IMG/VR virus record: IMGVR_UViG_3300045999_006694
Location: 1-45,543 of that record
DNA: 45,543 bases
Strand: one strand, 5' to 3'
DNA from: a virus
Each line of letters begins with the position of its first letter. Position 1 is the stretch's first letter. Below, piece after piece: positions 4,572-45,377 of the stretch. Position numbers and translations under genes: made by a program. The notes beneath the pieces are model-generated. The model saw nothing but the letters and a program-made list of their open reading frames with translations. It had not been told where the DNA came from and searched no databases.

Positions 4572-6786
4572 CGCATCGTCTCCCGTTGTGATTCCGATCC
4601 CCGGAGGGCTTGCCACACTGGAAGCCGCCGGGGGCTCAGGAGTCCGCAAGTTTAACCTGCTGGCCTACACTGGCAGCAAGGCCTACTTGCCTGGCCGATC
4701 CATTCCAGTGGTGTTCGAGTTGTCGACCATGAAACTGGTCGATGGCATGCCGGTTCCGCTGTTGTTGGACCACGACAACACGCATCCAGTGGGTCATGCG
4801 GAAGACGTGAAGATCGGTTCCGATCAGATTACCGCCACAGGCTACGCCAGCGCTGAAACAGAGTGGCGCGACACTGTAGTCGATAGCGCCGCGAATGGCT
4901 TCCGGTGGCAGTTGAGCGTGGGTGTGGTGGCAGATCGGGCCAATTTGATTGAGATTCCTGAGGGCCGGTCTCAAAATATCAATGGGCAGGTGTTGACGGG
5001 TCCGTTTATTTTGGCTAGGCATGCCGAGCTACGCGAAATCACTTTCACCGCGACCGGCGCAGATGCCGGGGGAGCGGTCGCAAAATTGGCCGCCAGTCTT
5101 GGCCCAACGGAGTCAATCACGATGAAGTTTTCACAGTACCTGATTTCACTCGGGCTTACCGCCGCGCTGCTGGGTGCCGAAGCCCTGTCCGCACTGCGAG
5201 CAACATGGCGAGCCGCCAACGCAGACGCTGAAGACGACGTTCCGGTGCCGACTCCGGCAACGCCTCCGGCGCCGGAGAATGCCAACCCGCCAGCCGCTCC
5301 CCCAGCTGCTCCGCCAGCCACTCCGCCTGCAGCCACTCCTCCTGCCAACGCTCCGACCCTGACTCAGTATGAGCAGGACGCCGCCGCCCAGGTGCAGCGA
5401 GTTGAGCAGCTGACCAGCTTGAACGCCAGTCTGTCACCGCCGCCGATTGAGGTGAGTGGTCAGCAGGTGCCGCTTCTGGCTCATGCAATCACGAATCGAT
5501 GGACACCGGAGCGGTTTGAGCTGGAAAGCTTGCGACGCAGACGCCCGCAAGCTCCCGCCGTTCACACCCAGAATCAGCCCGATCGTGATGTCCTTCAGGC
5601 TTCGCTCGCAATCGCCTTCGCTGATCGTTTGGGTGTCCGACCGGATCACCCGGTTTACGAGTCTCGCGACAGCCGAATTTCGCTGAATGCGAGTCTCCGC
5701 CGTTCGGTGAATGACTCGTTCCGTCAGCGAGCCATGGACCACGCAGACCGCTACCGCGGGCACGGGATGGTTGAGCTGTTCGCCCAGGCCGCCCGCCTCG
5801 GTGGTCAGGATCTATCACAACTGGGCCACTGGAGGACCGACGAATGGTTGCGGGCTGCATTCTCCAGCACGTCGATCAGCGACATGTACACACAGGCGCT
5901 GAACGCCCGTGTGATGGCTTCGTGGGTCGAGCAGACCAGCGAGCTGATGCAGCTGGTCACCGAGTCCGACGTTCAGAATTTCATGGCCGCAGAGCGCAAG
6001 GCGCTCGAATTGACCGGTGGGACTCCGAGACCATTGCCGAATCAGGGTGTCGCAAAAGACATCACGATGAGTGCGAATGGTGAGCAGATCCGCGCGAAGA
6101 TGTACGCCGACAGGTTCCAGTTCTCCGAACAGGACCTGATTGACGAACGCTTCGACACCTTGCGTCAGGCTGGGACCGTGATGGGCCAGCGAAGCCGCCG
6201 TCTGTTGTATGACCTGATTGCCTACGTGTTGATTGCCAACCCGACGATGAGCAACACACGAGCATTCTTCAACGCGAACGACGGTAACCTGCGAACCAGC
6301 AAGGCGCTGACCCGCGACAATCTGATTTCCGGATTGACAGCGTTCGAAACGCAGCAGGAAAACGGTGTGAATATCGATGTCCGCCCGACTCACCTTATCG
6401 TGAGCCGTGCAAATCGATTCACCGCTGCAGAGCTGCTGAGCCCGTCTGCTCTGATCACTGGAGAGAACGCAACGCGAAGCTCTCTGAACGTGCTGGCTGG
6501 TCAGATTGGTGGCGTGATGTCCGATGCACGCATCGACAACGGTTTCACCGACCCAACCGACACAGCAGATGTGCCGGCGACTGTTGCGGGTGTTCCCACC
6601 AGCTGGTGGATTGCAGACGCGACGCAGCCCGCAATCGAACTGGTGTATGTGGCTGGTCTTGGCCGTGTCCCACGCCTCCGCAATGGCCAGCTGGGGAACG
6701 GTCAGTTCGGATTCTGGTATGACTGCAGCATGGCAGCTGGCATCGCTCCGGTTCGCCGCAAGTCTGTCCAGCGCAACAACGCCTAA
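4549..6786 (+). CDS. Prohead protease - scaffold - major capsid protein fusion
   Basis: 745 residues, from ATG 4549 after a purine-rich GAGAGGACAG. Residues ~35-185 resemble HK97-type prohead proteases: a histidine in LLLDHDNTHPVGHAE (H75) and a serine in WQLSVGV (S123), followed by ELREITFTATGADAG. A Pro/Ala-rich linker spans ~231-270. Residues ~365-745 are a capsid-like domain (DHADRYRG; MSANGEQIRAKMYADRFQFSEQDLIDE; GNGQFGFWYDCS). No separate capsid gene is visible, so the single ORF must supply both, by self-cleavage, internal initiation, or both. Portal lies upstream and small head genes downstream. Confidence 0.85.
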   Translation: MARRISLNASSPVVIPIPGGLATLEAAGGSGVRKFNLLAYTGSKAYLPGRSIPVVFELSTMKLVDGMPVPLLLDHDNTHPVGHAEDVKIGSDQITATGYASAETEWRDTVVDSAANGFRWQLSVGVVADRANLIEIPEGRSQNINGQVLTGPFILARHAELREITFTATGADAGGAVAKLAASLGPTESITMKFSQYLISLGLTAALLGAEALSALRATWRAANADAEDDVPVPTPATPPAPENANPPAAPPAAPPATPPAATPPANAPTLTQYEQDAAAQVQRVEQLTSLNASLSPPPIEVSGQQVPLLAHAITNRWTPERFELESLRRRRPQAPAVHTQNQPDRDVLQASLAIAFADRLGVRPDHPVYESRDSRISLNASLRRSVNDSFRQRAMDHADRYRGHGMVELFAQAARLGGQDLSQLGHWRTDEWLRAAFSSTSISDMYTQALNARVMASWVEQTSELMQLVTESDVQNFMAAERKALELTGGTPRPLPNQGVAKDITMSANGEQIRAKMYADRFQFSEQDLIDERFDTLRQAGTVMGQRSRRLLYDLIAYVLIANPTMSNTRAFFNANDGNLRTSKALTRDNLISGLTAFETQQENGVNIDVRPTHLIVSRANRFTAAELLSPSALITGENATRSSLNVLAGQIGGVMSDARIDNGFTDPTDTADVPATVAGVPTSWWIADATQPAIELVYVAGLGRVPRLRNGQLGNGQFGFWYDCSMAAGIAPVRRKSVQRNNA
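5109..5124 (+). promoter_or_regulatory. Candidate internal ribosome binding site and start for scaffold-capsid product
   Basis: GGAG at 5109-5112 lies 9 bases before an in-frame ATG at 5122 (codon 192 of the fusion). Initiation here would give MKFSQYLISLGLTAALL... followed by the Pro/Ala linker and capsid domain without the protease. Lambda C/Nu3 uses the same logic. Confidence 0.4.
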
Positions 6787-9924: not shown

Positions 9925-12126
9925 ATGGCTTCCAGTCGATCAGTCAGAGCAGGTCGGGCGTTTGTGGAATTCTTCTTGGAAGACAATCCACTGAAACGCG
10001 GTTTGACCGTGGCAGAGCGCCGCCTGAGGCAATTCGGGGCGCGTGTACAGAACATCGGACGGACTGCATTTGCTGCAGGCTTCGGCGGCCTTGCTGCAAC
10101 CGCCCTGCCCGTCGCTCAGCTGATCGCGTTTGATGATGCAATCAGAATGACGGGGGCTGTATCACAGGCCACTGGGGCGGATCTGGAGCGACTCAGGAAT
10201 ACGGCGCTTGAACTGGGCCGCACGACATCATTCACCGCCGTGCAAGTCGCTCAACTGATGGGCGAACTCGGAAAGGCTGGTTTCAACGTCGATGAAATCG
10301 ACCAGATGACCGCCGCGGTGCTGAACCTGTCTCGGGCTTCCGGTACGGATGCTGTTATGTCCGCCGGCATCATGGCCGCAACGCTTCGCCAGTTTTCGCT
10401 GGGGGCTGAGCATGCCACACGAGTATCCGATGTGATGACGCTGGCGGCGAATGCCACATTCAACAGCGTAGAGCAGCTGGGCGAGGCGCTTAGTTATGCG
10501 GGACCTGTGGCCGCAGACCTTGGCATGTCACTTGAGGACACTGTTGCAATCCTTGGAACGCTCGGGAATGTCGGCATTCAAGGAAGCAATGCGGGAACGG
10601 CACTGCGCCGCCTCGGCACGATCACCGCAGCCGAAGCCGATAAAATGCGGCAGCTGTTCGGCGTAGAATTTCTGGACGCCGGAAAGAATCTCAGGCCGCT
10701 TGTGCAGGTGATGGGAGAACTGGCAGCCGCAACGAACGACCTGCCAGCTGGTGAGCGTATTGCGAAAATGAATGAAGCTTTTGGGCTTCTCGGAATCACT
10801 GGCGCCACGGTAATGGCAAGCACTGCAGCCGACACAGAAAGGCTGGCAACTGCTCTCCGAGACGCTGGAGGCACGGCACAGAAGACCGCCGCAGACATGG
10901 ACGCCGGACCGGGTGGAGTTTGGAGGCGATTCACTTCGGCGATTGAAGGGGCTGCGATTGCAATCGGAACATCGCTCGCCCCAACGCTGGAAAAGTTTGG
11001 CACATACATCACAGACATCACGGGCAAAGTGACTGAATGGATCGCAAAAAATGGTGAGCTGATTGTCTACGCTTTGAAGACGACCGCCGCCGTTTTTGCT
11101 GCGGGTGTTGCCCTGATTGGCGTGGCGAAAATCCTCTCAGCGTTGTCGGTGGTTGCCTCAGTTGCTGGTGCTGCAGTCGGTGCCATTACGACGGTGTTTT
11201 CGCTTACCACAGGTGCCGTTGGTCTTCTCGGTTCTGCCCTCACGTTGATGCTGAACCCGTGGATTGCAATTCCGACGGTTCTGGCAGCCGCTGGCGTGGC
11301 GATTGCCGCGACCAACATCAACCTGCATGAGATGGCCAACACGCTGCTGACGACCTTCACGCCGGCATTCAATCAGGTTGTGGAGATGATCAAAGCTGGG
11401 GACCTGCAGGGGGCTCTTGAACTTGCCATGGAATCCGCATGGGCCGCGATTCGAATGGGACTGATCAAAATGCGACAGGGGATGAACGAGACGGGAATCA
11501 CAATCCGCGAGATCTGGACACAGCTGTGGTCCAGTATCTCAAATTCCCCCGCGCTGGCATTCGCCGAAATCAAAGACTATGTCCAGCAAATCACTGACTG
11601 GGCAAACGCTCTGGTGGGTCGACAGATCCCCAACCGCATTTCCAATCTGGAGCGACTGCAGGCCCAGCTGCGAGCCGAAGAGGATGACCGGCAGGCAGCC
11701 TATGAACAGGAGCGGCAGGTTTACGCACGCGAAATGCAGGCCGTGCAGCTTGACCTTCAGAACGCAGTGGACAAGGCGAAAAACCGCACGGACCAACTGA
11801 AGCAAGACCAGAAGGAAACCACACTTGCCGCGCCGATCGCTCAGGCGGCCGCCGCACGCATGGCTTCCCCGGGCGGCATGCTCTCACAGCAGTTGCAGAG
11901 GAGCGTGACTGGCGTTGAGCAGGAGCGAGCGGCGTTTGTCGATGCTGTCGACCGCCGGACAGTTGAGGGGCAGCGGGCGATTTACGAATCGCTGAACCAG
12001 ACGACAGCCGTTGAAGAAACCACAGAGGCCGTCAAGTCGCTTGAAGGCACACTGGAAGACGAGTTCGAGCGCACGCGACGCGAGACGCGCCAGAACGCTG
12101 TGGTGATTAGAGGGAGCCGAAGATAA
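9925..12126 (+). CDS. Tape measure protein
   Basis: 733 residues, ATG 9925 with GAGG 7 bases upstream. Sets tail length and probably leaves the tail during DNA injection. Typical N-terminal core (FDDAIRMTGAVSQATGADLERLRNTALELGRTTSF..., SYAGPVAADLG, GNVGIQGSNAGTALRR), followed by a long hydrophobic region (~residues 385-460) that could insert in a membrane, and a C-terminal coiled coil rich in Gln/Glu/Arg (~570-640). It is the longest helical protein and directly follows the chaperones. Confidence 0.92.
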   Translation: MASSRSVRAGRAFVEFFLEDNPLKRGLTVAERRLRQFGARVQNIGRTAFAAGFGGLAATALPVAQLIAFDDAIRMTGAVSQATGADLERLRNTALELGRTTSFTAVQVAQLMGELGKAGFNVDEIDQMTAAVLNLSRASGTDAVMSAGIMAATLRQFSLGAEHATRVSDVMTLAANATFNSVEQLGEALSYAGPVAADLGMSLEDTVAILGTLGNVGIQGSNAGTALRRLGTITAAEADKMRQLFGVEFLDAGKNLRPLVQVMGELAAATNDLPAGERIAKMNEAFGLLGITGATVMASTAADTERLATALRDAGGTAQKTAADMDAGPGGVWRRFTSAIEGAAIAIGTSLAPTLEKFGTYITDITGKVTEWIAKNGELIVYALKTTAAVFAAGVALIGVAKILSALSVVASVAGAAVGAITTVFSLTTGAVGLLGSALTLMLNPWIAIPTVLAAAGVAIAATNINLHEMANTLLTTFTPAFNQVVEMIKAGDLQGALELAMESAWAAIRMGLIKMRQGMNETGITIREIWTQLWSSISNSPALAFAEIKDYVQQITDWANALVGRQIPNRISNLERLQAQLRAEEDDRQAAYEQERQVYAREMQAVQLDLQNAVDKAKNRTDQLKQDQKETTLAAPIAQAAAARMASPGGMLSQQLQRSVTGVEQERAAFVDAVDRRTVEGQRAIYESLNQTTAVEETTEAVKSLEGTLEDEFERTRRETRQNAVVIRGSRR

Positions 12127-16911: not shown

Positions 16912-17007
16912 ATGTCGGTATCCCCAACAACTACCACGGGATCTATCGGCACGGCAGCGCCAACAACAACAACCTCAAATGGCCAATGGCTCCCGGTGTT
17001 CCCATGA
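16912..17007 (+). CDS. 31-residue Thr-rich mini-protein
   Basis: ATG 16912 to TGA 17005-17007. It carries two P-T-T-T-T blocks and ends SNGQWLPVFP. Its stop overlaps the start of the first glycosyltransferase (ATGA), so the two may be translationally coupled. No good Shine-Dalgarno is visible; it may be read by reinitiation after the preceding gene, which stops 9 bases upstream. It could instead be a remnant of a longer Thr-rich tail. Confidence 0.4.
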   Translation: MSVSPTTTTGSIGTAAPTTTTSNGQWLPVFP

Positions 17008-17930
17008 AAATCACAATCGGTTTCGCCACACACAACGATTTCGACGGGCTTTACTTTTCGATCAATGCTCTTCGCCTGTATCACTCTCACGTGATGCAGG
17101 ATGTTGAATTGATTGTGATAGACAACGCTCCGGATTCACCATGTGGACAGCGAGCGAAGGGGCTTTTCGACCACATCAACGCGGGTATTCAGAGTGGTCA
17201 ACCGGGACATCCATTTTCAGCTCGGTGGATTCCATTCGGCGAAATTCAAGGCACCTCGGCGCCTCGTGACAGGATCTTTTACGAAGCCGCCGGTGACGCT
17301 GTACTGGTGATGGATTCGCACGTTATGCTGGTACCGGGGGCCGTGGAGAAATTACTGGCGTTTTACCGCAGTAATCCAGACTGCAGCGACCTGCTCTCGG
17401 GGCCGCTTCTGCTGGACAGTCACGCGACCGTTTACACGCATTTTACTGACACGTGGCGAGATGGCATGTGGGGCACGTGGGGCATCGACGAACGCGGGCG
17501 GGATATCGACGCGCCACCGTTTTCAATTCCGGCGATGGGACTCGGGTTGTTCAGTTGCCGCAAGAATTCATGGCTCGGATTCAATTCGGGATTCCGAGAA
17601 TTCGGCGGGGAGGAATGGTACATCCATGAGAAATTCCGGAAGGCTGGCCATGATTGCAAATGCCTTCCGTTCCTGCGCTGGCAGCACAGATTCGGCGATC
17701 CGGTTGGAGGGCGAAAATCACCGCTGAGTCTACATGGCAAGGTTCGCAACTACATGCTGGGGCATCAAGAACTTGGGCTAAGCCTTGATCGATTGCGGAA
17801 CCACTACATCTACGGCATCAATGAAGACACGCAGCTGGCCGAATCCCGCGACGGACGATTGACCGCCGCACAGTTCGCGACACTGGCCAGCAATCCGCAG
17901 GCCTACCCCGCTCTCTCTCTGTTCTGCTGA
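17004..17930 (+). CDS. GT-A glycosyltransferase, polypeptide GalNAc-transferase-like
   Basis: 308 residues, ATG 17004. Nucleotide-sugar transferase of the GT2/GT27 type: N-terminal beta strands ITIGFATHNDFDGLYFSI and VELIVIDNAPDS; metal-binding DSH at 104-106 (VMDSHVML), the DxH form used by polypeptide GalNAc-transferases; and IPAMGLGLFSCRK...FREFGGEEWYIHEKFRKAGHDCKCLPFLRWQHRF (177-230, given in part), which parallels the catalytic-region order of that family. No signal or membrane segment, so it should act in the cytoplasm. It follows the Thr-rich tail genes. The acceptor is inferred. Confidence 0.8.
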   Translation: MKITIGFATHNDFDGLYFSINALRLYHSHVMQDVELIVIDNAPDSPCGQRAKGLFDHINAGIQSGQPGHPFSARWIPFGEIQGTSAPRDRIFYEAAGDAVLVMDSHVMLVPGAVEKLLAFYRSNPDCSDLLSGPLLLDSHATVYTHFTDTWRDGMWGTWGIDERGRDIDAPPFSIPAMGLGLFSCRKNSWLGFNSGFREFGGEEWYIHEKFRKAGHDCKCLPFLRWQHRFGDPVGGRKSPLSLHGKVRNYMLGHQELGLSLDRLRNHYIYGINEDTQLAESRDGRLTAAQFATLASNPQAYPALSLFC

Positions 17931-17938
17931 GGTGACTC

Positions 17939-18592
17939 GTGAGGATCCCCGCATTCTTGACCGCGCGTGATTTGCTCTCAGTGATTGAGATGGCAAAGAA
18001 GCTGCGCGAAATGAAATCAGTCAGTAGTGTTACGATTATTGACTGTCATTCGACCTACAAGCCGTTGCTGGAAGCCTACTCGAAACTGCCTGGCGGGATC
18101 TCAGTCAGCTATGGCGGAAACGATGGCTGCCGGGCTTTCTGGACTCGCTTCCCAGTCCGCAACTTGTATCCGTTTTACTTGGTCAGTGACGGCGATTTGA
18201 GTATCGACCACTGGACTGGTGACGAAATTCCGATGATGCTCGAGCGACTGCAAAGTCAGCAACATTTGATTAAGGTGGGCTCCGCATTGTCGCTTCATGA
18301 CTTGCCGGACACACCGCTGGCAATGAAGGCGAAATTACACGAAGCCCAGTTCTGGCAGCACACCACTGTGAAGGGCTTTCACGCTGCCGATATCGACACG
18401 ACACTGGCGATTTATCGCACGCCGGACTGGCGTGGATATTATCCAGCTGAACGTTGCTGGATGGCCCAGGCAAAACACCTGCCATGGTATTTGGATGTTG
18501 ATAATTTGCTTCCGGACCACGCGCACTATTTGAGCCGGATCGATCACGTTGAGGGAACACACTGGAGTGGAATACTGAGATGCCGAAACTGA
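17939..18592 (+). CDS. GT-A fold glycosyltransferase
   Basis: 217 residues, GTG 17939 with GAGGTGA just upstream. N-terminal IPAFLTARDLLSVIEMAKKL, then VTIIDCHSTYKPLLEAY and a metal-site region YLVSDGDLSID. This order (start strand, ID-x-x-STY-PLLE, then S/T-D-x-D) is that of a GT2-like family in which I recall variants with the IDNNSTYPPLLEYL signature. Probably a second transferase extending or diversifying the glycan. Overlaps the next gene by 13 bases. Confidence 0.72.
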   Translation: MRIPAFLTARDLLSVIEMAKKLREMKSVSSVTIIDCHSTYKPLLEAYSKLPGGISVSYGGNDGCRAFWTRFPVRNLYPFYLVSDGDLSIDHWTGDEIPMMLERLQSQQHLIKVGSALSLHDLPDTPLAMKAKLHEAQFWQHTTVKGFHAADIDTTLAIYRTPDWRGYYPAERCWMAQAKHLPWYLDVDNLLPDHAHYLSRIDHVEGTHWSGILRCRN

Positions 18593-19377
18593 CACCGCTT
18601 GTAACTTGGATCACACCGACTTATTGCAGGCCGGAAACGCTTTCAAATTTGCTGGCGTGCTTTCTCGCACAGGATTACCCTCGGGAGCATTTACGGCTAT
18701 TGGTTCTCGACGATGCTGATCAGTATTCGCGTGAATGCCGTGGAGACAGCTGGGAGATCGTTTCGATTGGAAGGCGATTCAACAGCTTGCCGGCAAAATT
18801 CAACGCGCTGGTGGGGCTGTGCGAAACCCGTGACGAGTCGGATATCATCATTGTGGCAGAAGATGACGATTCATTCCTTCCGTGGCATACCAGCGCCCAC
18901 GTCAAAGCACTGGCCGACGGCGATTACTCGAAGCCGTCGCGAGTGCTGAGTGATTATGGATGCAACCCGGGCAGCTGGATCACCGAAAAGGCTGACGGGC
19001 GGTTTCACGGATCGATTGCATTCCTTCGCACGCATTGGGCAGAGCGTTGTGGGTGGCCGCTGACCGATCAGGCGAATTTTGATCAGCAGATGATGAGCCA
19101 CTTTGCCGCAGCTGGCCGCACGGTTGACCCGTGCGAGTTCGCGCCGCCCTCGTATGTGTTCAGGTGGCACACCAACAACTATCATGGGCAATCACTGGCT
19201 GATGGTCCCGGGGATTGTGAGTGGTACCGCAACCACGAGCTGAAACGCTTTGACCGCACGCGGATCTATTCACGGCAGCCGATTTTCGACCGATACACTG
19301 AGGCGCTGTATGCACGCATCCACGATCTGCAATCCATGGAATCCGATGCCGGGCTGGCTGCATCCGGGGGCACTTGA
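18580..19377 (+). CDS. Family 2 glycosyltransferase
   Basis: 265 residues, ATG 18580. Classical GT2 start LVTWITPTYCRPETLSNLLACFLAQDYP, then LLVLDDADQYS, and EDDDSFLPWH (around residue 94) as the DxD metal site. The third consecutive transferase of the cluster; no transmembrane segment. Substrate unknown. The 3' end overlaps the next gene by about 30 bases. Confidence 0.82.
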   Translation: MPKLTPLVTWITPTYCRPETLSNLLACFLAQDYPREHLRLLVLDDADQYSRECRGDSWEIVSIGRRFNSLPAKFNALVGLCETRDESDIIIVAEDDDSFLPWHTSAHVKALADGDYSKPSRVLSDYGCNPGSWITEKADGRFHGSIAFLRTHWAERCGWPLTDQANFDQQMMSHFAAAGRTVDPCEFAPPSYVFRWHTNNYHGQSLADGPGDCEWYRNHELKRFDRTRIYSRQPIFDRYTEALYARIHDLQSMESDAGLAASGGT

Positions 19378-27688: not shown

Positions 27689-30034
27689 ATGCGGAACGAG
27701 GAACTGACTGCAGTATTTTGCAGCGAGGATTATGTGTTTGAGAATGACGGCCCAGACAATCGGGCCGTGGTCATTACCGTGAAGCTGCCCAACCGGCAAA
27801 CCCTTCGGTGTCGTGGCGTGGCAGCTGATGGAGCGTTCAACAAAGGCCTGCAGTATCGGCTGTTCGGGCACTACACGACGCACGCGAAATACGGGCGACA
27901 GTTCGCCTTCAATTCGTTCGTCGAAGAAACCCCGCTTGACCCTGAAGCTGTGGTGGCCTACTTGATGCAATGCCGTGGTGTTGAGCGCGGCAGCATCTCA
28001 ATGCGAGTGGCTGAGGCGCTGGTCGAAAAGTACGGTGTCGAGGCGGTGGAAAAGCTAATTGAAAACCCGGCTGAAGCCGCTGATGGAATTAAACTCTGGG
28101 ATGCGACGAAGGCCGCAATTGCTGCGGGAATCCTGCAAAAGCAGCGAAGCACGCAGCGCACAAAGATCGACCTGATACAGCTGTTCGACGGGTACAAGTT
28201 CCCGAAGAAAATCGTCGACATGGTGATCCGCCGATTTGGTGCCGGTGCTGCTGTTGAGATCCGAAAAAACCCGTTTCATCTCTGCCAGTTTCGCGGGGTT
28301 GGCTTCAAGCTGGCCGACCAGTTGTACTGTGCACTGGTTCGTGAGCGATGCAAAACGGCTGAGGAGTTGGCGGAGGCAATGGCCGGGCCGTTTCGTCAGC
28401 TCCACGCCCTGTTTGACGCGGTCTCATGCGAGACGCGCAGCAGTGGCAGCACGTGGCATTCAGTGAACCACATGAGCGGCAAACTCAACGGACTCATTGG
28501 ATCGCGGGCAAACGCTGCCGAAACGCTGGTTCTCGCACAGCATAAAGGCATGTTGCGAGTCAGTAACTGCGGGAAGTTTGTGGCCTGTGAGCCAGCTGCA
28601 GCCCACGAGACGGACATTGCGATTGCGGTCGGGAATGCGAAGCTGAACGGTGATCTGGAATGGCCAACCATCGCAGCCATTGAGCGACAAGCCCCGCCGG
28701 GAAAACCACTGTCAGGCCACCAGCTGGCCGCAATTGAAATCTCAACGTCTCAGCGATACGGGTGCCTGCAAGGTTCGCCAGGTGTGGGTAAAACGTTTTC
28801 GGTGGCCTGTATCGTGAAAGCAATCATGGAGGAACACGGCCAGGATACAGTTGGTGTTGCAGCCCCAACCGGAAAAGCCGCGGTTCGCATGACGCAAAGC
28901 CTCGTGGCCAACGGTGTGATGGTTCAGGCGTCGACCATTCACCGAATGCTGGGAGTTGCGGCGGGTGGTGAGTCGGGCGGATATTCGTTCCTGCACAATG
29001 AAAGGAACCCGCTGCCGTTTCGCTTTTTGGTGATCGACGAATCTTCGATGATCGACACGGACTTGATGGCGGCACTGTTGCGGGCCTGTTCGGTGCAGAC
29101 TCACATTCTTCTGGTCGGTGATTCGAACCAGCTTCCGCCGGTGGGTCACGGCAGGCCGTTTCTGGATCTGCAGGAGGTGCTTCCCACGGGCAGGCTGACA
29201 GAGATTCGCCGCAACTCTGGCCTGATTGTGCGGTGTTGTGCAGCAATACGCGATGAACAGAAATTCCTGTCCGTTGCTTCGATGGATTTAGACGCCGGGG
29301 ACAATCTGATTCTGGTGCAGTGTTCAGACGAGGAGTCCATCAGCACGGTGGAAAACATGCTGGAGCGATTTGGACAGCTCACCAACAACATTGTTGAAGA
29401 TGTGCAGGTGTTGTGCGCCAAAAATGACCGGCGAACGGAACTCAACAAGCGTTTACAGTCGATGCTGAATCCCAATAAAACACCGATCAAAGGCAATCCT
29501 TTTCTGGTCGGCGATAAGGTGGTGTGCGTTAAGAATGGAGCCTATCCGGACGCAAACGATAAACTCACAGTTCATTTTGTCGCCAACGGTGAACTTGGTA
29601 TGGTCCGAGACATTCAGCCCGGGAAAATGATAATTCTTCTGCAGGATCCAATCCGGGAAGTTCTGGTGACCTACTCCGCGGCCAGCGCGGAAAACCAGTC
29701 CGGCGAAGGGGAGCAATCACGCGGAGCGGTCGGCGACTGGGATCTGGGTTACTGCCTGAGCGGTCACAGGTCACAGGGTTCGCAATGGCCTTGGGTGATT
29801 GTGCTGGTCGATCGTGCTGGCGCTATGGTGCAAAGCCGGAACTGGACTTACACTGTAATCAGCCGAGCCGAGAAGGCCACCTTCGTTGTGGGATCCCCAT
29901 CGACGGTGCAGCAATCTATGAGACGTGACGGACTGACAGGACGCGTGACCCTGTTGGTGGATGAAATTCGGCGAATTTCCGGCGCGCGTCGGAAGCTGAC
30001 GGTGGATGAGGTTTTTGCGGGAGCGGTGACGTGA
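27689..30034 (+). CDS. RecD2/TraA-type SF1 helicase
   Basis: 781 residues, ATG 27689. The N-terminal ~330 residues carry helix-hairpin-helix-like segments (QCRGVERGSISMRVAEALVEKYG; FRGVGFKLADQLY), as in RecD2. The motor follows: Walker A GSPGVGKTFS (~362-371), APTGKAAVRM, Walker B FLVIDESSMID, LLVGDSNQLPPVG, and late motifs GHRSQGSQWPWVI and YTVISRAEK. A 5'-3' DNA helicase for replication or recombination. It overlaps the sliding-clamp gene by four bases. Confidence 0.88.
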   Translation: MRNEELTAVFCSEDYVFENDGPDNRAVVITVKLPNRQTLRCRGVAADGAFNKGLQYRLFGHYTTHAKYGRQFAFNSFVEETPLDPEAVVAYLMQCRGVERGSISMRVAEALVEKYGVEAVEKLIENPAEAADGIKLWDATKAAIAAGILQKQRSTQRTKIDLIQLFDGYKFPKKIVDMVIRRFGAGAAVEIRKNPFHLCQFRGVGFKLADQLYCALVRERCKTAEELAEAMAGPFRQLHALFDAVSCETRSSGSTWHSVNHMSGKLNGLIGSRANAAETLVLAQHKGMLRVSNCGKFVACEPAAAHETDIAIAVGNAKLNGDLEWPTIAAIERQAPPGKPLSGHQLAAIEISTSQRYGCLQGSPGVGKTFSVACIVKAIMEEHGQDTVGVAAPTGKAAVRMTQSLVANGVMVQASTIHRMLGVAAGGESGGYSFLHNERNPLPFRFLVIDESSMIDTDLMAALLRACSVQTHILLVGDSNQLPPVGHGRPFLDLQEVLPTGRLTEIRRNSGLIVRCCAAIRDEQKFLSVASMDLDAGDNLILVQCSDEESISTVENMLERFGQLTNNIVEDVQVLCAKNDRRTELNKRLQSMLNPNKTPIKGNPFLVGDKVVCVKNGAYPDANDKLTVHFVANGELGMVRDIQPGKMIILLQDPIREVLVTYSAASAENQSGEGEQSRGAVGDWDLGYCLSGHRSQGSQWPWVIVLVDRAGAMVQSRNWTYTVISRAEKATFVVGSPSTVQQSMRRDGLTGRVTLLVDEIRRISGARRKLTVDEVFAGAVT

Positions 30035-31218
30035 TTAAGACGGTGACGATCAATCGAGAAGCGTTGGCGGTAGCGCTGAAAATCTGCATTCCAATCGCGG
30101 CGAAAAGCACGCGGACGCAGTCCATCTTGCTAAATGTCATGCGTGACGGCGTGACGCTGGAAGCGATTCATGACACGACGGCAGTGATGTACCAACTCGT
30201 GGCTGAGAGCAACTACACAGGCTGTGTGATGCTGTCTCCGAAGATCCTGAAGGCACTTCAGGCAGAGCATGGTGAGCAGGTGTTGATACAGCAGGCTGAC
30301 GACAAGACAATCAGTGTCAGGATTGCAGATGATCGATGGGAGTTCCCAACGGAAGATCCAAACGATTATTCCTCAGCAAATTGGTCGAATGACTGTGTGG
30401 CCAGTGTGCCAGCTGTGGAGCTGCTACAGGCGCTGAAGTTCGTCGAGCATGCGGTTGATAAAGAGAATGGATCCAGCCGGTACGCTCTGGGCGGTGTGTA
30501 TTTTGAATTCCATTGGGGCTCGAAATGTCTGGTTCAGGCCACAAACGGAAAACAAATCGCCCTCACGCAGGCAACGCTGAACGCCGAAGGCAAAGCCGAC
30601 AAAACTGGTAAGCGAGGAATTGTGGTCCCGCTGGACTGCATTAAGACCATTCGCACGCTGTGCAATCAGGCTGAGCTGGTCGAAGTGTTCGAGGTTGGTG
30701 AGCAGATCCAGTTTCAGGCCGGCGGCATGCGAGTTGTTACAAAGCTGCTGGAAGGCCGATTCCCCAACGTGAAGGCCACAACCTGCAAAGGTGAGCCATT
30801 CGCCGCCATTCAGTCCGATGTGCTGCAGAACGCCGTAAAGGCCGCTGCCGTTGTCGCTGACGCACAGGATTCGTCAGTCGACCTGAAGTTTCGGAAAGAC
30901 GGCAGTCCCGGGATGGCGCTTGATGATCCGCCTTTCCTGCATGCCATGAGTGTGAGCCCTATCGGAAAATCGGTTGGGTATGGTTGGTGCGTGATGGTGA
31001 TTGAGGACAAACAGTTGACGATTTCGGCGGAGCTGCTTCTGGATTCCATCAAATCATTGCCGGAAGATTTGCGGCTGGACCTGAGAACAGACGACAGCGA
31101 AAAACTGCAGATCAATTGCGAACATGGAACACTTGTGATTGCTGGGATGACGCGAAATGAACCTAAAAAGCCAAGCGTACAAGACGATAGCAAGCCTGTT
31201 CCGGATCCGGCAGCTTGA
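30031..31218 (+). CDS. dnaN: DnaN-like sliding clamp
   Basis: 395 residues, GTG 30031 (GTGA overlap with the helicase). Pol III beta-clamp pattern: KTVTINREALAVALKICIPIAA... in domain 1, GGVYFEF and QATNGKQIALT in domain 2 (compare ATDGHRLA), then VVPLDCIKTI and KLLEGRFPNVKAT (the LLEGxFP signature). The third domain is more divergent, and a Pro/Lys tail follows. No polymerase gene is present, so this clamp likely serves host Pol III or the phage's nucleases. Its end overlaps the next gene by 62 bases. Confidence 0.85.
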   Translation: MIKTVTINREALAVALKICIPIAAKSTRTQSILLNVMRDGVTLEAIHDTTAVMYQLVAESNYTGCVMLSPKILKALQAEHGEQVLIQQADDKTISVRIADDRWEFPTEDPNDYSSANWSNDCVASVPAVELLQALKFVEHAVDKENGSSRYALGGVYFEFHWGSKCLVQATNGKQIALTQATLNAEGKADKTGKRGIVVPLDCIKTIRTLCNQAELVEVFEVGEQIQFQAGGMRVVTKLLEGRFPNVKATTCKGEPFAAIQSDVLQNAVKAAAVVADAQDSSVDLKFRKDGSPGMALDDPPFLHAMSVSPIGKSVGYGWCVMVIEDKQLTISAELLLDSIKSLPEDLRLDLRTDDSEKLQINCEHGTLVIAGMTRNEPKKPSVQDDSKPVPDPAA

Positions 31219-31915
31219 AGATTTCCGCAGTGTGAAGGCTGCTGAAATTCTTGCGGTGCAGGGAATTGGCAAGGTGTTTCTGAATAAGCTTAGGCTGCAT
31301 CTGGCACGCCATCAGGTTGCACTGCGAAACGACAATCCGCCGGCATATTGGCTGCAGGCCCTGACGCCGCCTAGTGATCCAGCTGAAGCTCGTGGAGTGT
31401 GCCCGTTCACGATCGTGATCGATGTGAATGAAACACTCCCGTTTCAGTTTGCGGACATTCTGGACAGCGACAACAACGCGATTGCCATACCCACCACCCG
31501 CCGTTCTCAATGGTCGATTGGGCTGGCGGATTATTCAATCGACGGGATGGAACATCTGATTCAGATTGAGCGTAAAGGCGATGACCTGCCCAGTTCGTTG
31601 GCGGGCCGTCGCGAAGAATTCGAGGGTGAGATTCGCAGGCTCTCCGAAGGCTGCGAATTTGCCGCTGTGGTTGTGGAGCATCCATGGCGGGACTTCTTCC
31701 AGGACACCCACGAACACGGAGCCCGGGCCAGATCGATCTTCCGCACAGTTTTGCAGTGGCAGATCGATTACCCTGGCGTCCATTGGTGGTTCTGCGAGGG
31801 CCGCGCCCACGCGGAGCAGGTGACGTTTCGGCTGCTGGAAAAATTTTGGTGGCAGCAGCAGAGACAGCAGGCTGAGCAGTCGTGGCAGAATCGACTGGAT
31901 CAGATTTTTAGTTAA
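31157..31915 (+). CDS. XPF/ERCC4-family structure-specific nuclease
   Basis: 252 residues, ATG 31157, starting inside the clamp gene. An HhH-like segment (RSVKAAEILAVQGIGKVFLNKL) opens the protein. The ERCC4 nuclease region follows: WSIGLADYSIDGMEHLIQIERKGDD (shown in part; ERK is the catalytic signature), then SLAGRREEFEGEIRRL and FAAVVVEHPW. The C-terminal coil is Gln-rich. Such enzymes cut branched or flapped DNA; the neighbours are the clamp and the primase-helicase. Confidence 0.78.
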   Translation: MNLKSQAYKTIASLFRIRQLEDFRSVKAAEILAVQGIGKVFLNKLRLHLARHQVALRNDNPPAYWLQALTPPSDPAEARGVCPFTIVIDVNETLPFQFADILDSDNNAIAIPTTRRSQWSIGLADYSIDGMEHLIQIERKGDDLPSSLAGRREEFEGEIRRLSEGCEFAAVVVEHPWRDFFQDTHEHGARARSIFRTVLQWQIDYPGVHWWFCEGRAHAEQVTFRLLEKFWWQQQRQQAEQSWQNRLDQIFS

Positions 31916-31935: not shown

Positions 31936-31962
31936 ACGCGACAGAGTGCGAGTCTGTGGCGT
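31936..31962 (+). promoter_or_regulatory. Hairpin in the nuclease-primase gap
   Basis: ACGC-G-ACAGA / TCTGT-G-GCGT: nine pairs with one G/G mismatch, 7-base loop. It lies in the 138-base gap before the primase-helicase (start 32054). No T-run follows, so it is a leader structure rather than a standard terminator. Confidence 0.45.
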
Positions 31963-32053
31963 GTATCCGTTTCGAACTCCCGTCCGGAAACCCCGGATAT
32001 GCCACGGGCTGCGCTCGCACCGCAGCCAGTGGTCAATACACGCTGGAGGCGAA

Positions 32054-34864
32054 ATGGTTGTTGCATTCAACGCGGCTGAAGTGCGCCGCACGCTGGAATT
32101 GTTCTGCGGTGGGAATGTCGCAGAGGTTCGGATCATTAACGCATTCGGGAGCAAGAGCCGCACGGATGCAGGGTATTTTTCGCGGTACGAGATTGCAGCG
32201 GGGGCGATTGCTGGCCACGCCATGCACCCCAAAAACTCTGGCATTTACTTTGTGCTGAATGAGTTTGCCCCAGACCTGCAGAACCGAGCCAGTAACCGAA
32301 TTGCGGAGCGAATCGACAGCACTGCCTCTGATGCCGACATCACGCGCCGCCGATGGTTTTTCATCGACTGCGATCCAAAGCGGCCCGCAGGGATTTCGTC
32401 GAGCGAAGCTGAGTGGATGGCCGCCAAAGCGACAGCCGACGCGGTGGCCCTGTTCCTTGCAAGCCGTGCATTCCCCGCCCCGATCATGGCAAGCTCTGGC
32501 AACGGCTGGCACCTGCATTACAGGATCGACGTCCCGAACAACGAAGCGGCAACGGAGACGATCAGAAACGCACTGCGGGAGCTGTCCAACCGATTCAGCA
32601 ACGGGGCAGTAACAGTTGACACCAAAGTCTTCAACGCCGCGAGGTTGTGCAAGCTGTATGGCACTGTGGCACGCAAAGGAGACCATTCGCCAGAACGCCC
32701 GCACCGCGTCAGTGAACTGGTCAGTGTGCCAGAAACAATCCACGTCTGTGATTGGTCGAAAATCGAAGCACTGGCTGCAGACGCGCCGAAAGAAAAGCCC
32801 AAAGCAACCCGCGAAAAATCACGAACAAAGCCGCGCCGCTCGATTGTGGATCGCGCTGCCGCGTATCTGACGAAGATCCCGCCGGCAGTCAGCGGTGAGT
32901 CCGGGCATGATGTGACATTCCACGCCGCCTGTGTGCTGGTCCGCGACTTCGATTTGAGTGTTGAAGACGCCTTGCCGATTTTGGCGGAATGGAATGAGCG
33001 ATGCAGCCCCCCGTGGTCCGATCGTGAGCTGCTGCACAAACTGCAGGACTCGGACAAGGCCCCCGGAGAGAGAGGCCGGGCCCTGCAGTCTGATCGGTGG
33101 GAGCCGGATCCAATCGCGCCACGGTCCGCAGCGGTGGCGATTGCAATTCCCGCGTCTACACAGCTGGTACATGATCCGGATCCGATTGTGATTCCCGAAC
33201 ACCTGCGGATGCACAAGGCGATTCTTGACACACTTGGAATCATCTACTGTGCAGCTGAGGACACCAGTTCGGCAATTGAGATCTTCAGCGACGCAACGCG
33301 CAAGTTCTCACGCTTCAAGGATCCCTCTGCGATCAAATACGAACAACTCGTATTGGCTGCCGGTCACCCGATAATGATCCATGTTCAGCGGACCGGGGAC
33401 GATTCTGGGCAGTTTACCCTCTCGCAGGTCAAGCTCGCCATTGCCTCAGTGGCTGCGCAGACTTCAGCAGTCACCGAAAAGCGGGGCGTCGGTGTGTGGG
33501 AATCCGGCTGCAATCTGGTGATCGTGTCGAGTCGGCAGCTGGGAATCCTCAACGGCAGTCCACAGCTGAGCGTATCGCAGAATCCGGTGTTCAGAAATCA
33601 GGCGTATGACGTGGGTGACCGCTGTGAATGGATCGACATGCCAAAATTGGCGGAACAGATTTGCGGTGTCGGTGCACAGCCTGGCAGACTTCACGTCGAT
33701 GATGTGTTCGCGCTTCAAGGCCTGTTTGCCAAATGGACATTCAGGAATCCTGACGGGGTGATTCCTGAGGTACTGACCGGGCTTGTCATGGCCAGCTTTG
33801 TCCAAACCCTCTGGCGATGGCGCCCACAGGTGTTTTTGATCGGTCAGGCCTACGCTGGCAAAACCACCATGATGCACGCGCTGGCCGCGATCTTCGGGGC
33901 CTTGGAAGCCAACTCCGCCCAGTCCTCCGCCGCAGGTATCCGCCAGGCTTTGCGGAATTCGGGCCGGATCCCGCTCTGTGACGAGCTCGAAAAGAACAAA
34001 CACCGCCCCGAAATCTTTGAGATGATCCGGAGCAGCGGACGCGGTGACGAAGTTTTTCGTGGCACAGCTGGCCAGCACGGGCATGTTGCCTTCAAGCTGC
34101 AGCACATTTTTTGGTGTGCGTCGATCGAGTCGGGCCTGCTGACCGAAGCAGACTCCAGCCGGTTCATCGTGATTGAGCTGCAGAAAACGAATCAGAAAAT
34201 CGATGTGCCAGACAACGAGACACTGGATGCTCTGGGTCGCCGCCTTGCCGCTTCCGCAATTGTCAACGTCCGTCGCGCTCGAGAGGTTGCCGATTATTGC
34301 CTGGCTCGTCGCCCCGATGGCGTCCACGGTCGCGTGTGCGAGTCCTACGCGGTCCCTGTGTCGATGTATGCGGTAAGTGTCGGGATGAGCGAGACAGAGG
34401 CCTTGGCGCTGTTCCTGCGGGCTTTGGATGGGATTTCCGAGTCTGATCAGGTGGAGTCGGACGCGGAGTCCCTGCTGCACGAACTGATGCTGTCACAGGT
34501 GCAGGTCGCAGGAGGCCGCAGGCTGTCACTGGCCAGCGCTCTTGAGTCTCGGTATCAAACTCCCGTCGAAGAGGCTCTGGAGGCCGTTGGAGTGATCGTG
34601 GAAGGTGATTCAGTACTGTTCAATAAATCGCTCGCCCTAAGATACCTTCTGACTCACGACTGGAAGGGGAAACGGATTGACCAGATTCTTTCCCGGATCC
34701 CGGGAGTGTCACGAGTGGTAAGGAGGTCGGGAAAAACCTCCCTACGGTACATTTGTATTCCTCGTTCGCTTTTCGGAAAGCTGAAATCTGACCCGGAACC
34801 CGAGCAGGCCAGTGGACAGAATAGTGGACGGACAGACCCCTTTGGCCAGAAATTTGAGTGGTAA
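32054..34864 (+). CDS. AEP primase - helicase fusion
   Basis: 936 residues. ATG 32054 is chosen because GGAGGCGAA precedes it; an upstream in-frame reading exists. N-terminal archaeo-eukaryotic primase domain: FIDCDPKRP (D105, D107), SSGNGWHLHYRID (~148-159) and NAARLCKLYGTVARKGD, matching the DxD, sxH and R/K motifs. The C-terminal half is a P-loop ATPase with Walker A GQAYAGKTT (~597-605) and later PLCDELEKN, which may be Walker B; this is typical of primase-helicase replication proteins. The iteron-like origin lies directly downstream. Confidence 0.82.
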   Translation: MVVAFNAAEVRRTLELFCGGNVAEVRIINAFGSKSRTDAGYFSRYEIAAGAIAGHAMHPKNSGIYFVLNEFAPDLQNRASNRIAERIDSTASDADITRRRWFFIDCDPKRPAGISSSEAEWMAAKATADAVALFLASRAFPAPIMASSGNGWHLHYRIDVPNNEAATETIRNALRELSNRFSNGAVTVDTKVFNAARLCKLYGTVARKGDHSPERPHRVSELVSVPETIHVCDWSKIEALAADAPKEKPKATREKSRTKPRRSIVDRAAAYLTKIPPAVSGESGHDVTFHAACVLVRDFDLSVEDALPILAEWNERCSPPWSDRELLHKLQDSDKAPGERGRALQSDRWEPDPIAPRSAAVAIAIPASTQLVHDPDPIVIPEHLRMHKAILDTLGIIYCAAEDTSSAIEIFSDATRKFSRFKDPSAIKYEQLVLAAGHPIMIHVQRTGDDSGQFTLSQVKLAIASVAAQTSAVTEKRGVGVWESGCNLVIVSSRQLGILNGSPQLSVSQNPVFRNQAYDVGDRCEWIDMPKLAEQICGVGAQPGRLHVDDVFALQGLFAKWTFRNPDGVIPEVLTGLVMASFVQTLWRWRPQVFLIGQAYAGKTTMMHALAAIFGALEANSAQSSAAGIRQALRNSGRIPLCDELEKNKHRPEIFEMIRSSGRGDEVFRGTAGQHGHVAFKLQHIFWCASIESGLLTEADSSRFIVIELQKTNQKIDVPDNETLDALGRRLAASAIVNVRRAREVADYCLARRPDGVHGRVCESYAVPVSMYAVSVGMSETEALALFLRALDGISESDQVESDAESLLHELMLSQVQVAGGRRLSLASALESRYQTPVEEALEAVGVIVEGDSVLFNKSLALRYLLTHDWKGKRIDQILSRIPGVSRVVRRSGKTSLRYICIPRSLFGKLKSDPEPEQASGQNSGRTDPFGQKFEW

Positions 34865-35175
34865 GCCCGGTTTGTTGCGCTCTGTTGCGCTACCGAAAAA
34901 TCCAAGCGCAACACTATTGGATAGTCGTAAAGCGTTATAGTAGTAGTAGTTAGTGTAAGTAGATAGGTAAATGTTGCGCTGTTGCGCCTGCCGGCGAGGC
35001 TCGCGGCACTCACACACACTCACTCTCTCACTCATATATATTCAGGCACGTGACCCCGTATAGACGTATGCGTTCGGCAAAAGTAGCGCAACAGCGCAAC
35101 ACTTTTCAGAATTGCAGTGTTTTCATTAGTGAAACCGTGTTTTTTGCAGCGCAACGCAAGGCGCAACTGTTGCGC
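34865..35175. repeat. Iteron-like candidate replication origin
   Basis: Ten copies of GTTGCGC or its complement in ~300 noncoding bases: + at 34874, 34884, 34973, 34981 and 35169; - at 34906, 35086, 35094, 35149 and 35161. Pairs are spaced 8 or 10 bases apart, and the last two form a 15-bp odd palindrome (35161-35175). AT-rich stretches lie between (34921-34972; 35031-35044), candidates for unwinding. About 0.04 copies would be expected by chance. Located after the primase-helicase, it resembles plasmid-type iterons. It could instead be an operator cluster. Confidence 0.65.
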
Positions 35176-35369
35176 GACCATTCCGGACGGCCAATCTGGC
35201 CAGCAAATCGCAGAAATTCAGCAACATGGAGGAAATGCGAATTCAGAGCGCCGTGCCGTTGTTTTTTGGCATGCTTACGGCAATAGTTCTGACGTGACGT
35301 GACGTGGTGACAGTGACAGGTGACAGCGAGACAGAGGCAAATAGTGGCTCAGTGAACCAACCGATCAGG
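35176..35369. other. Noncoding gap downstream of iterons
   Basis: No gene I accept. Contains the dyad GGCCAatcTGGCC (around 35190-35202), a possible 23-codon hydrophobic mini-ORF at 35226-35297, and a tandem GACGT/GTGAC run (35291-35330). It is continuous with the iteron block and the structured leader that follows. Confidence 0.5.
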
Positions 35370-44525: not shown

Positions 44526-45377
44526 ATGCCCGGAAACCCCGAACGCTATTACGCAACAGTTCTGGCCGATTCGATCAACCCGACCGATGATCGCGTTACA
44601 ACTCTCCAGATCCGCATGCCTCTGTGCGTCTGGCCGGAATTCCTGACACACCGCACAGTGGCGCGCAACGCCCGCAGTAATCGTGCAGTCCCTTCGCGCG
44701 TCCTGATCAGTGAAGTGATCCGCAATCCATTCATTCCAGAGCACTGGGGCCGCAACAGATCCGGCATGCAGTCCACAGAACCGCTGACCGGCATTCGCCG
44801 AACCATAGCGCGTGAGGCATGGCTGGGAGCACGCTGGGGGGCCGTGGCAGCCGCTTGGGTAATGTCTCGCGCCGGACTGCACAAACAGGACGCCAATCGC
44901 GTACTGGCGCCTTGGCAGTGGGTGGACGCGGTGGTAACTGGAGATCCAACCGCATGGAGTGCTTTCCTGCGCCTCAGGGATCATCCGGCAGCAGACCCGA
45001 AGATTCAGCGGATTGCCGTGCACATCGCAAAGGCAATCGCGATATCGACGCCGCAGAAGTTGGGGTGGAATCAGTGGCACAAGCCTTACTACACGGACAA
45101 GCCGCAATATGTGGCACCTGAAGAAGGCGATCGGATTGATATGTGCATGGCATCAGCGGGAGCGTGTGCGCGTGTGTCCTACGCTGCATTTGATGGGCAG
45201 CAGAGCGATCGGGCGAACGAGGAGCTTGCCAAAAAGCTAGCAAAAGAAACACCCTCACACGGAAGCCCATTCGAGCATGTGGTGAGGGCGAGCATGGATG
45301 GCGATGGATATCGCAGAGCCGGTAGGCAATGCCTGAGAGGCAATTGGGAGACGCTGAGAGCAATCAAGAGGCTGTGA
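44526..45377 (+). CDS. thyX: ThyX-type flavin-dependent thymidylate synthase
   Basis: 283 residues, ATG 44526 after an AGGAG-type site. ThyX makes dTMP from dUMP using FAD and methylene-tetrahydrofolate. The signature RHR-x7-S appears as T41-H42-R43-x7-S51 (FLTHRTVARNARSNR), so the first Arg is Thr. Other family features: NPFIPEHWGRNRSGMQ, AGLHKQDANRVLAPWQW and KLGWNQWHKPYY, near the folate and dUMP regions. It supplies thymidylate during replication. The next ORF begins 16 bases downstream. Confidence 0.85.
   Translation: MPGNPERYYATVLADSINPTDDRVTTLQIRMPLCVWPEFLTHRTVARNARSNRAVPSRVLISEVIRNPFIPEHWGRNRSGMQSTEPLTGIRRTIAREAWLGARWGAVAAAWVMSRAGLHKQDANRVLAPWQWVDAVVTGDPTAWSAFLRLRDHPAADPKIQRIAVHIAKAIAISTPQKLGWNQWHKPYYTDKPQYVAPEEGDRIDMCMASAGACARVSYAAFDGQQSDRANEELAKKLAKETPSHGSPFEHVVRASMDGDGYRRAGRQCLRGNWETLRAIKRL

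Follow-up and report, generated by a model that had tools for sequence, protein, structure and literature searches.

The question raised by this locus is whether the noncoding gap directly 3' of a large primase-helicase gene serves as the replication origin of the virus and, if so, which protein reads it. The window, by which we mean the whole stretch of 45,543 nt that was analyzed, is the 45.5-kb virus record IMGVR_UViG_3300045999_006694, in which the genes for terminase, portal, head protease, and tape measure form a tailed-phage set and no end repeats were found. The initial annotation had proposed a candidate phage origin in the gap, and this proposal is now supported by a layout that is conserved in close relatives and by arrays at the same place in distant ones. 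We consider it probable that positions 34865 to 35180 are the phage origin, situated immediately after the gene that encodes its initiator, and that the primase-helicase would bind the sites, melt the DNA, and prime synthesis.

The gap contains exactly ten exact copies of GTTGCGC or its complement GCGCAAC between 34874 and 35175, with five on the plus strand (beginning at 34874, 34884, 34973, 34981, and 35169) and five on the minus strand (34906, 35086, 35094, 35149, and 35161), as the initial annotation had counted. The first iteron begins 10 bp past the stop codon of the primase-helicase ORF, which ends at 34864. Across the whole window there are 14 copies versus 14.8 expected from dinucleotide shuffles, indicating that the word is clustered rather than globally enriched. 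The expectation of 0.04 copies derived earlier by base counting was too low, as dinucleotide shuffling gives about 0.10 copies per 311 bp (Poisson P of ~3e-17), and any other 7-mer reaches at most five copies in every 311-bp stretch of the window. From left to right, the array consists of an outer direct pair of exact GTTGCGC with a 10-bp step (34874 to 34890, plus strand), a single inverted iteron (34906 to 34912, minus strand), a central direct pair with an 8-bp step (34973 to 34987, plus strand), an inverted pair with an 8-bp step (35086 to 35100, minus strand) that faces the central pair over a 98-bp spacer, and an outer group of two inverted sites and one direct site (35149 to 35175). The pairing at 8 or 10 bases described previously holds for these three pairs and for the two facing iterons at 35161 and 35169 (8 bp, inverted), besides which there are a 12-bp step between 35149 and 35161 and the single site at 34906. 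The 15-bp palindrome GCGCAACTGTTGCGC reported within the array is present at 35161 to 35175, but it is not a separate element, as it is simply these two iterons facing each other at an 8-bp step.

Three elements overlooked in the initial annotation, a C-free tract, a G-free tract, and a conserved GC-rich block, lie between these sites. The first (34934 to 34976, plus strand) is an AT-rich tract of TAG repeats, 43 nt in length, that is the longest C-free run of the window and a candidate unwinding element; it is located immediately 5' of the central iteron pair, with its last four bases overlapping the next iteron, and its TAG density is 8 in 50 nt, compared to no more than 2 elsewhere. The second (35007 to 35044, plus strand) is a 38-nt tract of CA/CT repeats and ATATAT that constitutes the longest G-free run in the window, and it lies just beyond the GC-rich block 3' of the central pair, so that the C-free and G-free tracts flank this pair. 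The GC-rich block itself (34988 to 35010) has weak hairpin potential; it is conserved in the relative L002, where the loop is longer by a 2-nt insertion, and only partly in the relative L370, while its fold z-score is -2.4 in the window and -0.85 in L002, where folding is unsupported. No RNA families were found. GC skew, suggested earlier as a check, shows no switch at the array and is uninformative here. A host DnaA origin was also considered and was set aside because no DnaA box is present within one mismatch.

Concerning the protein that might read these sites, the primase-helicase gene (31946 to 34864, plus strand) encodes an ORF product of 972 aa in which primase and helicase are fused, with the true start probably near 32054 to 32057. 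Upstream of it are genes for a RecT-like annealase, a RecD-like helicase, a sliding clamp, and an ERCC4-type nuclease, indicating that the primase-helicase is part of a replication module. The clamp gene (30031 to 31218), two genes upstream of the primase-helicase, encodes a phage homolog of the DNA polymerase III beta-clamp, and its ORF overlaps that of the ERCC4-type nuclease (31157 to 31915) by ~60 bp. The AEP primase domain retains the catalytic motifs IDCDP, SGNGWHLHY, and KLYGTVARKGD, which an alignment with distant AEPs also shows in a Bacteroides phage and in a protein of an archaeal plasmid, and the P-loop ATPase/helicase region contains the P-loop GQAYAGKT and is similar to PHROG DNA primases. 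The C-terminal region is the part proposed to bind the iterons. The full-length model of the protein has a pLDDT of 34. For the C-terminal 203 residues, the model is of low confidence (pLDDT of 50) and gave no significant structural match. The best fold match of this poor model is SaPIBov1 Rep, which is insignificant (E=0.04), and the plasmid initiator RepE54 is among the next, so that these matches may be taken as a hint only; a PDB sequence search with the primase-helicase returned no SaPI Rep match. Neither an initiator of the Rep_3/RepE family (in the neighboring or other ORFs) nor a DnaA-like protein was detected among the ORFs scanned. This agrees with the earlier remark that no initiator is evident besides the primase-helicase, which remains the simplest candidate.

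Three close relatives of the window, L002, L370, and L003, were identified, and the array could be compared in two of these, as the sequence of L003 stops within the gene. In L002, the primase-helicase of which is 87% identical, there are ten iteron copies after the gene in the same layout, in the order of a direct 10-bp pair, an inverted single site, a direct 8-bp pair, an inverted 8-bp pair, and a facing pair, with turnover of one iteron and the site at 35149 not kept. In L370, with 69% identity, the outer sites are degenerate, including the 10-bp pair, and the outer facing pair is not intact, but the core is kept: the inverted single site retains the hexamer GCGCAA, the direct 8-bp pair is exact, and the inverted pair reads GCGCAA/GCGCAAC at the same 8-bp step. 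The central pair, GTTGCGCTGTTGCGC, together with the following CCT, is identical in the window, L002, and L370. The identity between the window and L002 is 67/70 in iteron columns and 145/242 in other columns (P of 6e-10), while the corresponding values for L370 are 52/70 and 113/242 (P of 4e-5), and this concentration of conservation in the iterons, together with the indels, argues against the region being coding. The C-free and G-free tracts are also the longest such runs in the available L002 and L370 sequence, and among all three their composition is kept while the sequence drifts. According to the initial annotation, an origin would be contradicted if relatives retained the primase-helicase but had lost the motif; instead, the motif is preserved along with its orientation and spacing at 87% identity, and partly so at 69%. 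Further searches added no close relatives: a nucleotide search of annotated phages with the array gave no match, a genome-contig search with the primase-helicase protein alignment gave no relatives, a scan for the facing-pair pattern matched only the contig of L002 (missing L370 because its inverted pair is degenerate), and a scan for TAG repeats plus a pair returned the known relatives and single chance pairs.

These comparisons also bear on other functions that such an array might perform. A regulator could bind the sites and control the neighboring genes, as operators likewise consist of short intergenic repeats in both orientations, and the region is upstream of the next gene, which encodes a SNase-like nuclease and starts between 35413 and 35455. 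However, the gene following the array in L002 and L370 differs from that in the window, so the array stays with the primase-helicase rather than with its downstream neighbor, a search limited to the sigma-70-like type found no promoters, nor were terminators found, and the arrays of distant relatives described below sit after the primase-helicase gene and not before it. We therefore regard an operator array as improbable. Partition sites and certain packaging sites may also contain iterated short sites, and a centromere-like or packaging function would be compatible with the repeats as such, but there is no ParA or ParB among the ORFs scanned, the terminase gene (371 to 2608) is 32 kb from the array, and in the relatives the array accompanies the replication gene, making this reading very improbable.

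Arrays are also found beside distant homologs of the protein. A scan with the AEP-domain alignment gave 80 loci. Other than the three close relatives, none of these exceeds 46% identity in its best segment, and after removal of near-duplicates 63 loci had enough sequence 3' of the gene. An array was scored where a 7-mer in the 400 bp after the stop codon had a higher copy number than all 200 dinucleotide shuffles gave. By this measure, a significant array immediately follows the gene at 9 of the 63 distant loci, versus 0.3 expected (binomial P of 4e-11), compared to 2 of 68 in the same test on the 400 bp before the gene, and the nine positives exclude the window's nearest lineage (L002 and L003). 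The repeated word varies from locus to locus. Candidate origins directly after the AEP-helicase gene are formed by eleven copies of AGCCGGG in L384 (9700 to 9990), ten of AGTGTCG in L456 (9442 to 9690), nine of ATAATGG in L423 (7100 to 7380), and nine of GGTTACA in L451 (9259 to 9540), and further arrays comprise eight copies of ATCCCGC in L411, seven of ACTCCCC in L430, and six of CGTCACA in L398. The two weaker arrays are of ACTACAT in L382 and GTCCGGA in L448, the latter of which carries no weight because its word is itself palindromic. L453, a homolog of L423, has only three copies of an unrelated word, which is not significant and also carries no weight, and most of the distant AEP-helicase loci have no array by the strict 7-mer test. 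No array follows the gene in the Bordetella phage PBb001 or the Planctomyces plasmid pPL62-4, which encode distant homologs, that of PBb001 being a helicase homolog. Same-strand steps of 7 to 10 bp, summed over the window and eight relatives (L384, L398, L404, L411, L423, L430, L451, and L456), number 21 versus ~5.3 expected under random placement. Among the distant loci, the helicase part is in some cases of the D5_N/DUF5906 type and in others of the DUF3987 type. Distant relatives also have long C-free and G-free runs after the gene, but these follow in part from the AT-richness of intergenic DNA and are not taken as proof.

The words in these arrays provide a clue to the identity of the binding protein. 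In three pairs of full-length homologs the words are identical or similar, as a cognate initiator predicts: L392 and L398 both have CGTCACA, L382 and L404 share an ATTATGT core followed by AGT or TGG, and L411 and L430 have ACATCCCGCA and ACTCCCCA, respectively. In this small sample, the match between word and protein points to a cognate initiator, which is probably the primase-helicase. The alternative that the region is an origin at which the iterons are occupied by a host factor or an unrecognized small phage protein that in turn recruits the primase-helicase is consistent with the weak models (pLDDT 50), which leave a DNA-binding domain in the primase-helicase unconfirmed, and with the case of pRN1, where specific binding of the replication protein to the origin region could not be demonstrated (PMC4234260). 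It also gains from the occurrence of GTTGCGC elsewhere. Scans for paired or tripled GTTGCGC mostly returned coding repeats and chance matches, the useful exceptions being the enterobacterial prophages L122, L009, and L032, in which GCGCAACA arrays are accompanied by a long GC-rich hairpin (10700 to 10870, 6072 to 6240, and 6219 to 6400, respectively). In L122 and L009, the arrays directly follow an unrelated AAA_25-type helicase gene with a primase-like N-terminus, implying that one word can be paired with different helicases, although only the location is informative here, as these prophages were found by searching for the word. Against a separate binder, the word changes in step with the primase-helicase in the three homologous pairs, the array stays beside the primase-helicase while the following gene changes, and the ORFs scanned, which do not include every small ORF, yielded no other initiator. 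On balance, we judge a separate iteron-binding protein to be distinctly unlikely. Two other loci with the word are worth recording: in L367, a related Escherichia coli chromosome, the array region is annotated as a hypothetical protein, and L173, an unrelated virus contig, has fourteen GTTGCGC in both orientations at 9-bp steps (11150 to 11340), adjoining a gene whose product looks like a ParB/methylase-type protein.

Binding by the primase-helicase itself, which we favor, can be framed by comparison with known systems. The initial annotation likened the array to plasmid iterons, and while it is an iteron array as such, a classical initiator of the Rep_3/RepE type would be needed for a close parallel, and the short sites in both orientations and the facing pairs make SaPI-, P4-, and large-T-type origins the more apt comparison. 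The closest working models are those of the SaPI (Rep) and SCCmec (Cch2) elements. A SaPI origin adjoins the 3' end of rep and is recognized through the C-terminal domain of the Rep helicase, a protein proposed to bind as two hexamers (PMC7581432). As in SaPI, the window, L002, and L370 have multiple short noncoding iterons directly downstream of an initiator-helicase gene, and iteron groups bracket an AT-rich or low-complexity region, which in the window corresponds to the facing 8-bp pairs around the 98-bp spacer with its G-free tract; the TAG tract lies outside the left 8-bp pair and not in the spacer. Unlike in SaPI, the helicase of the window is fused to an AEP primase within a tailed-phage genome, whereas the AEP of SaPIbov1 is separate (SaPI5 Rep is a fusion), and the iteron word and the TAG and G-free tracts also differ. 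Any relation between SaPI Rep and the window protein would depend on an insignificant DUF927 match (E=0.07) and the fold match from the poor model (E=0.04). The P4 alpha protein combines primase, helicase, and C-terminal winged-helix origin binding in one protein that acts on short repeats (PMC4234260), and the window similarly has primase and helicase in one protein beside short repeats, but the P4 primase is of the Toprim type, whereas that of the window is of the AEP type with its catalytic motifs. In pRN1 (ORF904) and Bordetella phage BIP-1, AEP primase and helicase are also joined in one protein, and the origin is likewise proposed to be directly 3' of the gene, but as a large stem-loop without iterons (PMC4234260), in contrast to the strong iteron array and weak 34988 to 35010 hairpin of the window. 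By analogy, the best reading would be a SaPI-like origin directly 3' of a self-loading helicase, but on an AEP-helicase fusion.

In such an origin, the primase-helicase, probably via its C-terminal region, would bind the GTTGCGC sites, and the oppositely oriented 8-bp pairs at 34973 to 34987 and 35086 to 35100 could seat two facing helicase rings with the 98-bp spacer between them. Melting would take place in the strand-biased TAG tract and the G-free tract, primers would be supplied by the AEP domain, and a replisome with the phage's own sliding clamp might then load on both sides, so that we infer initiation to be bidirectional. The TAG repeats also recall the bacterial basal unwinding system, in which the DnaA-trio has the consensus 3'-GAT-5' (PMC8287927). 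In the window, L002, and L370, TAG (3'-GAT-5') repeats lie on the same strand just 5' of the tandem pair, as in that system, but the sites are GTTGCGC with no DnaA box and no DnaA-like protein among the ORFs scanned, and mixed TAG and TTAG units break the triplet phase. A broader and rather unlikely extension is that AEP-helicase fusions constitute a wide class of self-initiating replicons in which gene and iteron origin move together as one cassette with the word rewritten as the protein changes, and that this lineage has converged on a DnaA-trio design, with the initiator on the tandem pair extending onto the TAG single strand.

The origins of most environmental phages are unknown, and if the proposed origin is correct, those of many phages with AEP-helicases could be read directly after the replication gene. 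Each initiator would then have its own DNA word, so that a recognition code might be derived from comparisons of protein and word, the suggestion that AEP-SF3-type phage replication proteins use a stem-loop rather than iterons would need revision, and a DnaA-trio-like layout in a phage would become testable. Within the open-access literature covered, the combination of an archaeo-eukaryotic primase, iterons, and a phage is scarcely mentioned, and given this scope any claim to priority is tentative.

The remainder of the window includes two predicted family-2 glycosyltransferases (16986 to 17930 and 18580 to 19377) between the structural and replication genes, as well as a thymidylate synthase-like gene (44526 to 45377) near the contig end.
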